Origin: a virus | DNA: 22,131 nucleotides | IMG/VR virus record: IMGVR_UViG_3300020445_000091 | Span: 1-22,131 of that record | Direction: 5' to 3' (one strand) | Shown: positions 2,959 through 10,113 of the stretch, piece by piece | Position numbering within the stretch: the stretch's first letter is position 1 | Layout of the letters: each line of letters starts with the position of its first letter | Notes under the pieces: model-generated | Seen by the model: only the letters and a program-made list of their open reading frames with translations | What the model was told of the DNA's origin: nothing | The model's database searches: none | Translations under genes and position numbers: made by a program

Positions 2959-2979
2959 GTAACAACAATGCCAAACAGA

Positions 2980-3023
2980 TTATCCACACGTTTTCCACAC
3001 TTAGCGGACATACTTGTGGAAAA
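2980..3023 (+). promoter_or_regulatory. Cluster of three DnaA-box-like sites with inverted arrangement
   Basis: Three 9-mers fit DnaA boxes: TTATCCACA at 2980-2988, TTTTCCACA at 2991-2999, and TGTGGAAAA at 3015-3023 (TTTTCCACA on the minus strand). The second and third form a 10-bp perfect inverted repeat (2990-2999 and 3015-3024) with a 15-base spacer. TTATCCACA is the bacterial consensus; TTTTCCACA is the form reported for cyanobacteria. An AT-rich stretch follows (about 3025-3080), as expected of an unwinding region. Use as an origin is inference. Confidence 0.5.
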
Positions 3024-3138
3024 CAGTGTATATTTAAAAGGGTTAATTAAACATAAGTATGTGTTATTTAACGATTGTAATATGGACTCTAGTTAGTGTT
3101 ATCTTAGAGCGTAACATAGCGAGATTTTTTTGTCAACA

Positions 3139-3185
3139 ACTGTGAGGAAATATGTCAATCCTCGGTAATACATTGACATCACAGT
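3139..3185. repeat. Nested inverted repeats overlapping a promoter -35 box
   Basis: Three dyads overlap: ACTGTGA (3139-3145) with TCACAGT (3179-3185); ATGTCAAT (3152-3159) with ATTGACAT (3172-3179); and GAGGA (3144-3148) with TCCTC (3159-3163). The 8-bp arm ATTGACAT contains the TTGACA box of the promoter. This is where an operator would be expected. The binding protein is unknown. Confidence 0.45.
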
Positions 3186-3201
3186 ATTTCTCCTATATAA
3201 T
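3173..3201 (+). promoter_or_regulatory. Consensus sigma70 promoter
   Basis: TTGACA at 3173-3178 and TATAAT at 3196-3201 are both perfect hexamers and are separated by exactly 17 bases. Transcription would start near 3208 and read into the 56-aa gene at 3224. A host-type promoter this close to consensus suggests early expression by host RNA polymerase. The surrounding dyads suggest it may be controlled. Confidence 0.8.
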
Positions 3202-3223
3202 AACAATGTAAGCACATATTACA

Positions 3224-3394
3224 ATGGGAAGATCTTACAAACGTAATGACCCTTATTCATCAAATAGGGCGAAGAGTTTGCGAGAAAAGAGAAAACAATC
3301 AAAGACAAAGTATAGAAGGGAAAATGATAAGAATTCCACAACATATGTGGAAAACTATCAACAACCCCGCACAGATTACCCCCACCCCGCATAA
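3224..3394 (+). CDS. Small, very basic protein, 56 aa
   Basis: The 56-aa product starts MGRSYKRNDPYSSNRAKSLR and continues EKRKQSKTKYRRENDKN, ending in a Pro-rich tail (QQPRTDYPHPA). About one third of the first 35 residues are Lys or Arg, so nucleic-acid binding is plausible. It lies about 16 bases downstream of the predicted start of a perfect sigma70 promoter, the strongest in the window, and is probably an immediate-early gene. It has no Shine-Dalgarno sequence. Two DnaA-box-like sites lie inside its coding sequence (3332-3354). I do not recognise the family. Confidence 0.65.
   Translation: MGRSYKRNDPYSSNRAKSLREKRKQSKTKYRRENDKNSTTYVENYQQPRTDYPHPA
3332..3354 (-). promoter_or_regulatory. 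Additional DnaA-box-like sites inside the 56-aa gene
   Basis: TGTGGAAAA at 3346-3354 is an exact TTTTCCACA on the minus strand. It is opposed by AATTCCACA at 3332-3340 (7 of 9 matches), so TTCCACA (3334-3340) and TGTGGAA (3346-3352) form a 7-bp inverted repeat. They echo the cluster about 320 bases upstream. Confidence 0.4.
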
Positions 3395-3415: not shown

Positions 3416-3586
3416 ATGACTAAAGTATCAACAATTCAGACAAATCCTCCTGTAGATGTAAAGATATGGGAGACACGTAGGAAATACTTTTGGGCGTATA
3501 ATTACCCACTATGTAATAAGAATGGTCCGTTTAAAAGCGAGAAGTTAGCATTACTTGATGCAACACAATATTCAAGCGATTCTTAA
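3416..3586 (+). CDS. Small hypothetical protein, 56 aa
   Basis: ATG 3416 lies 21 bases after the previous stop. The 56-aa product begins MTKVSTIQTNPPVDVKIWET, then RRKYFWAYNYPLCNKNG and ends in SEKLALLDATQYSSDS. It looks like one beta sheet with a short C-terminal helix; the spacing of aromatic residues (W, YFW, Y) recalls DNA-binding integrase-arm folds, but this is only an impression. It is probably cotranscribed with the upstream basic protein from the promoter at 3173. No Shine-Dalgarno sequence. Confidence 0.6.
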   Translation: MTKVSTIQTNPPVDVKIWETRRKYFWAYNYPLCNKNGPFKSEKLALLDATQYSSDS

Positions 3587-3777: not shown

Positions 3778-4266
3778 ATGTCCATAGCAAATGAAAACGA
3801 GAGAGAAATTCGCAAGAGAGAGTTAGAGGAAGAATTCGCAGACCTCATCGGACTCCCTTGGTCTGGTAGGAGATATCCAGGTTGCTATGGAATTGTCCAG
3901 AAATATGCCCAGACACGCCTTGGAAGGTCTCTGAAGGACTTCTCAGGGTTATATACATCTTTTATGAATGAGGCGGTAGCAGAAGAGGATGGGGTATGGA
4001 TTGACAGACCAACATGGGGAGAGGAGTTAGACATGTCTCTGTTAAAGAAGAGTGATCTCCTATTGTTTAAGGTATACGACACAGTTATGGGAGACAAGGC
4101 AAAGTTTGACGAGAGAGCACCCAATCACGGTGGGGTTTACTTAGGTGATGGATTCTTACTTCATCAGTTATGGCAAGAGAATAGCAGTATCATAGACATG
4201 CGTAGAGGGGTCTATAAGAGATACCAGACATGCTGTGTAGGTATAGTTAGGGAAAACACTACATAA
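3778..4266 (+). CDS. NlpC/P60-like peptidase, probable tail-tip cell-wall hydrolase, 162 aa
   Basis: This protein resembles the NlpC/P60 papain-like fold of phage tail proteins that cleave peptidoglycan stem peptides during entry. The visible core is LIGLPWSGRRYPGCYGIVQ with the likely catalytic Cys36. NHGGVYLGDGFLLHQL follows, with His117 as the likely second catalytic residue and His129 or a nearby polar residue as the third. The length suits a single catalytic domain. No signal peptide is present, as expected for a virion protein. It is the first gene after a palindrome-rich gap and precedes the structural genes, so a place at the hub or tip is likely. The start codon lies in an A/T run without a Shine-Dalgarno sequence. 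Family call is fairly sure; virion location is inferred. Confidence 0.8.
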   Translation: MSIANENEREIRKRELEEEFADLIGLPWSGRRYPGCYGIVQKYAQTRLGRSLKDFSGLYTSFMNEAVAEEDGVWIDRPTWGEELDMSLLKKSDLLLFKVYDTVMGDKAKFDERAPNHGGVYLGDGFLLHQLWQENSSIIDMRRGVYKRYQTCCVGIVRENTT

Positions 4267-9699: not shown

Positions 9700-10113
9700 A
9701 TGGCTTCTTATAGGTTCAGATCGGAAAAATATGTCTCCAGGGGATTTAAAGACTTAGCAGTCTCATTTAATTCTAATCCTAATACTGGAGATTTTGGTGT
9801 GGTTAAGAATGAAAACGCTATCAAACAGTCTGTTCGTAATTTAATTATGACAATGTTTGGTGAAAGACCCTTCCAACGTAGCATTGGATCTAAAGTTAAG
9901 GCACTTTTGTTTGAACCATGGGATCCATTTGCAGTGGATACTATTAAAAGTGAAATTTATAACTGTCTAACAAGACTTGAACCCCGTATTAAAGTAACTG
10001 GGGTCCAACTTCGTGATGATTCTGAGGTTAATTCCGTGCAAATAGGTATAGATTATACCATTGTAGGTGAATCAGAAACCCAAAACGTCGAATTTCTCCT
10101 AGAGAGAGCATAA
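9700..10113 (+). CDS. 25: Baseplate wedge protein gp25
   Basis: A 137-aa protein of the GPW/gp25 family. In T4, gp25 is a wedge subunit that joins gp6 and gp53 and holds the start of the sheath. The N-terminus is MASYRFRSEKYVSRGFKDLA. The central segment, KNENAIKQSVRNLIMTMFGE then RPFQRSIGSK, is typical of the family. The core LEPRI (E94-P95-R96) is the conserved EPR motif, followed by the beta strands VTGVQLRDD and VQIGIDYTIV. The length fits T4 gp25 (132 aa). It is preceded by a late promoter and lies one base before gp6. The ATG context is CAAAAATGG with no Shine-Dalgarno sequence. Identification is secure. Confidence 0.93.
   Translation: MASYRFRSEKYVSRGFKDLAVSFNSNPNTGDFGVVKNENAIKQSVRNLIMTMFGERPFQRSIGSKVKALLFEPWDPFAVDTIKSEIYNCLTRLEPRIKVTGVQLRDDSEVNSVQIGIDYTIVGESETQNVEFLLERA

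Follow-up and report, generated by a model that had tools for sequence, protein, structure and literature searches.

Described origins and the cyanophage locus

Origins oriF and oriG of bacteriophage T4 are defined by a promoter and a downstream AT-rich unwinding element, and oriE comprises an early promoter and iterons (PMC3016281). For the cyanophage Syn9, a single theta origin has been predicted (Weigele 2007, cited in PMC2984593). In the literature accessible to us no established replication start of T4-like cyanophages was found, only this predicted Syn9 origin. A search for reports on cyanophage DnaA boxes or a mapped origin likewise found none, a weak negative as most subscription papers fell outside its coverage.

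The window analyzed here is a complete viral record of 22,131 bases and represents a 22-kb piece of a T4-like cyanophage genome. An earlier sequence-only reading had called the phage T4-like, and this was borne out by a gp25 gene (PF04965) at 9700-10113 followed by a gp6-type gene. The locus under study, hereafter the element, resembled T4 oriF and oriG in its sequence signature, with an AT-rich element following the promoter within ~100 bp, and in its T4-like phage background with the same replisome genes. Unlike oriF and oriG, its promoter was of the host early type with a full TTGACA -35 rather than a MotA middle promoter, and it carried host DnaA boxes. One such locus is conserved family-wide in cyanophages, whereas the T4 origins have no common motif. 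As in oriE, short repeated sites clustered beside an early promoter, but the iterons of T4 are direct repeats of 12 nt whose role is unproven, while the element repeats the host DnaA box and does so in both orientations. The T4 genome contained only five copies of TTWTCCACA, which were scattered. Cyanobacterial oriC upstream of dnaN shares with the element TTTTCCACA boxes beside AT-rich DNA, and one Prochlorococcus origin resembles S-WAM1 in its adjacent tandem boxes; in contrast to oriC, the element lacked dnaN and a CTA-repeat (DnaA-trio-like) run and had two strong divergent promoters. Syn9, a T4-like cyanophage for which the cited prediction likewise claims one origin, carried the element at 52.57-52.78 kb. 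We consider the element a candidate origin-like element of the T4 plan, to which host initiator sites would have been added.

Boxes, AT-rich motif and divergent promoters in the window

The features of the element are listed in Table 1. When the sequence was re-read, all box coordinates given by the sequence-only reading were found to be correct, including that of the degenerate box, which reads exact TTTTCCACA in one relative (L118). Both inverted pairs it had described were real, the second as TTCCACA-N5-TGTGGAA at 3334-3352. It had also stated that the record held no other exact copy, and no exact TTWTCCACA was found in the 22,131 bases beyond boxes a to d. Clustering beyond chance was upheld: dinucleotide shuffles of the record gave a mean of 0.67 exact TTWTCCACA versus four found, and at this rate the chance of four boxes within 375 bp is ~2e-7. 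One-mismatch boxes showed no excess in the window (19 matches versus 15.6 expected), and the signal thus lies in the exact boxes and their clustering. Equally dense clusters elsewhere in the genome had been named as evidence that would count against the claim, and none was seen: a 199-kb relative (G001) had four boxes, three of them at the element. The 9-mer TTTTCCACA is a documented cyanobacterial DnaA box (PMC4674748).

Table 1. Sites, putative promoters and small genes of the element, in window coordinates
Feature	Position	Strand	Description
DnaA box a	2980-2988	+	exact TTATCCACA
DnaA box b	2991-2999	+	exact TTTTCCACA
DnaA box c	3015-3023	-	exact TTTTCCACA; forms inverted pair with box b
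AT-rich motif	3032-3055		ATTTAAAAGGGTTAATTAAACATA; candidate unwinding element
Leftward sigma70-type promoter	3108-3136	-	TTGACA-N17-TACGCT; TG one base before -10
Rightward sigma70 promoter	3173-3201	+	TTGACA-N17-TATAAT, 12/12 match; conserved in relatives
Small gene	3224-3394	+	MGRSYKRND..., 56 aa; early-type, conserved, behind rightward promoter; carries box d
Degenerate box	3332-3340	+	AATTCCACA; left arm of second inverted pair
DnaA box d	3346-3354	-	exact TTTTCCACA
Next small gene	3416-3586	+	phrog_24597, function not assigned; also after the element in P-TIM40

The AT-rich DNA and the consensus promoter that had been noticed next to the boxes were both present. In most families the box pair had the AT-rich motif beside it, and isolates without boxes retained the motif. 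A second, leftward promoter had been missed; its start is predicted from the sequence signature near 3101, and its block was the most conserved part of the element in relatives. In 26 of 31 elements, TTGA(C/T) and a following TA were separated by exactly 17 bases, versus 9% at other such sites, a contrast whose significance is overstated since the 31 elements are mutually related; none of the 31 had the same signature at spacings of 16 or 18. The anchor TGTCAA was picked by eye from the alignment, the 17-base spacing was not, and Syn9, which has no TGTCAA, was excluded from the count. TG stood one base before the -10 in 25 of the 31 elements, and at least three different -10 hexamers occurred at the same 17-base spacing, which argues for a promoter.

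The two divergent sigma70-type promoters sit between the box pair and box d, an arrangement that would also suit a transcription switch, in which host DnaA regulates the two early promoters, or forms a roadblock at them, and replication does not start there. Early expression of the phage would then be tied to the cell cycle of the host; regulation of transcription by DnaA at boxes other than those of oriC is known (PMC7198777). Both promoters are conserved; however, the box pair adjoins the AT-rich motif in the window and does not lie over the promoters, being ~80-120 bp past the leftward start and at least ~150 bp from the rightward promoter. Moreover, in S-WAM1, P-TIM40 and Syn9 no leftward gene is annotated downstream of the leftward promoter that could be regulated; the genes around the element all run rightward, and a leftward transcript would therefore be non-coding. 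Boxes are also missing in some isolates that keep both promoters (P-TIM40). We rank the switch as the main rival and judge it unlikely.

With respect to the genes behind the rightward promoter, the 56-aa gene had codon periodicity values of 0.15, 0.13 and 0.28 in relatives and a homologue in P-TIM40, and its protein had no family match. Further on, at 3778-4266, a 162-aa protein is predicted, with a sub-threshold NlpC/P60 match and weak matches to tail-protein PHROGs. Wherever both the element and gene 25 could be located (the window, S-WAM1, Syn9 and twelve contigs), they had the same orientation, with the element upstream at a distance of 2.8-7.7 kb.

Conservation in relatives and isolates

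A search with the gp6-type protein yielded 80 related viral contigs. Most relatives with a homologous stretch carried plus-strand TTTTCCACA, followed 23-35 bp on by TGTGGAAAA (or TGTGGATAA), and a distal box, another TGTGGAAAA, 329-332 bp beyond the second. Conservation in close relatives over the same interval, a test named by the sequence-only reading, was strong: in an alignment of 25 sequences (the window and 24 relatives, chosen for having boxes) the three boxes recurred, the boxes being constant and the flanks variable. The slots of boxes a and b, 11 bp or one helical turn apart, interchanged among relatives, and three relatives (L045, L056 and L061) had two plus boxes with box c broken.

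The frame at 2968-3096 over the boxes was open in 25 of 25 sequences. Codon periodicity was absent from a 60-base part of it (0.23, 0.25 and 0.30 in relatives), and the 9-mer of box c was intact in two frames of the overlapping small ORF, read as LVEN or, after a one-base shift, LWKS. Coding was rejected on these grounds as the reason for the conservation of boxes b and c; the frame may still encode a small protein. At box d, the valine codon was GTG in 25 of 25 sequences against 7.5% of valine codons in large ORFs, and the preceding codon encoded six different residues with a third-base T in every sequence, counts that are not independent as the sequences are mutually related and were selected for box d. 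Because the surrounding codons change and the 9-mer does not, this pattern points to selection on the DNA.

The comparison of relatives showed that the box sites are conserved at the DNA level, and that neither protein code nor RNA structure is what is kept. That the inverted pairs form stem-loops or terminators in a transcript is by now scarcely credible and already largely refuted. TTTTCCACA-N15-TGTGGAAAA could pair in RNA, and there was one weak terminator-like match at 3352-3334, but S-WAM1, Syn1 and S-SM2 have their boxes as direct repeats only, box c is broken in the relatives that keep two plus boxes, and the 9-mer is invariant rather than covarying. No consensus RNA structure was found in the core, and Rfam gave no match.

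A gapped pattern scan for three boxes at these spacings found 51 viral contigs, some of them with 6-9 boxes; the contigs formed eleven groups between which no DNA similarity was detectable. The same anatomy was seen in about ten sequence-divergent groups, marine and freshwater, a spread that the sequence-only reading had missed. In one freshwater element (L123), the repeat part matched repeats in the unrelated phages Klebsiella S16a/S16c and Microvirus mar31. Since the scan selects for boxes, isolates were fetched instead by accession or core similarity. A direct BLAST of the region against isolates returned only one short stretch, in P-TIM40, which has no boxes. Whole-genome counts of TTWTCCACA in isolates were 1-10, with two or three boxes grouped at one place in Syn9 (52565, 52589), S-PM2 (19231, 19244, 19256), S-SM2 (58064, 58085) and S-WAM1 (48559, 48580, 48589), and further in S-CREM1, P-SSM7, S-SM1, S-SSM5, Syn1, Syn33 and S-ShM2. 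The site of the group in these isolates bore the same core sequence as the window element. Six of 19 isolates kept the core with no exact box (P-TIM40, Sf-CH1b, S-RSM4, S-SSM7, P-RSM4 and P-HM1); DnaA thus cannot be essential everywhere, and in these isolates it would be optional or replaced, at most accessory.

In the S-PM2 record (L344), several tRNA genes are annotated at 17.4-19.4 kb, two of them over DnaA boxes and the AT motif. The tRNA annotation over the element was not supported, ARAGORN finding none in 15-25 kb.

From 21 sequences, a model based on sequence alone was built that begins at the AT-rich motif and extends to the rightward promoter, and 20 records were searched with it. 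All ten held-out T4-like cyanophage isolates (S-RSM4, P-HM1, P-SSM7, S-SM1, S-SSM5, S-SSM7, Syn1, Syn33, S-ShM2 and P-RSM4) were matched at E<1e-8, weak partial matches were obtained in P-SSM2, P-SSM4, S-CRM01 and S-TIM5, and T4, the T7-like P-SSP7 and the Microcystis phage Ma-LMM01 gave no match. Beside the ten held-out matches lay 13 exact boxes versus 0.02 expected, the model being not fully blind to boxes as a few of its sequences include box letters at the edge. At least two exact boxes accompanied the match in six of the ten; S-RSM4, S-SSM7, P-RSM4 and P-HM1 scored with no exact box. In S-SSM7, the right half of the model matched many more places at 41-51 kb, probably other early promoters with a common upstream motif.

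There is good support for reading the boxes as cyanobacterial-type DnaA sites within a functional element, be it origin-like or for early control. This support comes from nucleotide-level conservation, site turnover by a helical step, the host-type 9-mer, and the fact that in many lineages the boxes occur together with early promoters and AT-rich DNA. The 9-mer could instead be the target of a phage-encoded protein, its likeness to a DnaA box being coincidence or mimicry, and T4-like phages do have many uncharacterised early proteins. This we regard as improbable: in marine as well as freshwater groups the 9-mer is letter-identical to the DnaA box of the host, its main variant is TTATCCACA, and phage proteins would be expected to drift together with their sites. 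No phage-encoded DnaA C-terminal domain (PF08299) was detected in the relatives and other contigs tested, mostly fragments. The sequence-only reading had proposed an origin or early switch that recruits or titrates host DnaA; its DnaA-type sites in a functional element stood, its description of the element lacked the AT-rich motif as such, and binding of host DnaA at the candidate boxes, with replication, regulation or titration as the outcome, is what we infer from the sequence.

Candidate early origin and the host side

The combination of the T4 oriF/oriG plan with host DnaA boxes favors reading the element as an early origin of replication that takes its primer from the leftward transcript and is helped by host DnaA, and we assign this a probability of about one half. 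Host RNA polymerase would start at the leftward promoter right after infection, and the transcript would cross the AT-rich motif ~45-70 bases downstream and reach the DnaA boxes at ~80-120 bases. There, box-bound DnaA may help to open the AT-rich DNA, may halt the polymerase, or both, and the RNA 3' end or R-loop left behind would give the phage replisome its primer for the leading strand. The rightward promoter would drive early genes, and box d could allow DnaA to bridge the element. T4-like phages load their own helicase, which we counted against a need for DnaA. More tentatively, at somewhat less than even odds, T4-like cyanophages would use a hybrid origin, in which an early-promoter RNA primer is opened or bounded by host DnaA and the timing of phage replication is tied to the host initiator.

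The element is a strong, testable candidate for the replication start of T4-like marine and freshwater cyanophages, and offers a short, conserved and exact target in culturable phages (Syn9, S-PM2, P-SSM7, Syn1 and S-SSM5). It predicts directly that host DnaA takes part. If true, the timing of infection would be linked to the host cell cycle, and a T4-like phage would be borrowing the host initiator.

As to the host, the 199-kb relative had a psbA closest to Prochlorococcus. In four Prochlorococcus genomes, ~3-5 boxes with no more than one mismatch directly preceded dnaN; most of these were one-mismatch forms, whereas the phage boxes are exact consensus. After these boxes came a CTACTACTA run, which we take to resemble a DnaA-trio; the DnaA-trio-like repeat CTACTACTACTAA was present upstream of Prochlorococcus dnaN and absent from the phage element. 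The exact consensus of the phage boxes would suit titration, in which they soak up host DnaA as phage copies build up and so halt host replication. This is decidedly improbable: there are 2-4 boxes per phage genome versus 18-25 exact TTTTCCACA per host genome examined, and titration needs no fixed place, spacing or partner sequences. All four Prochlorococcus genomes (L286-L289) also shared an inverted pair of exact TTTTCCACA whose starts are separated by 44 bp; this pair, intergenic in the one genome inspected and not beside dnaN, is possibly another host DnaA site.

Cumulative GC skew, another test named by the sequence-only reading, showed no origin-type minimum and no turning point that would speak decisively for or against an origin. 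The detrended maximum lay 5-11 kb to the left of the element in four of five genomes, and skew at fourfold sites was flat. In the 199-kb relative, GC content was 0.32-0.35 over the ~20 kb directly upstream of the element (~122-141 kb), compared with ~0.40 in most of the genome.
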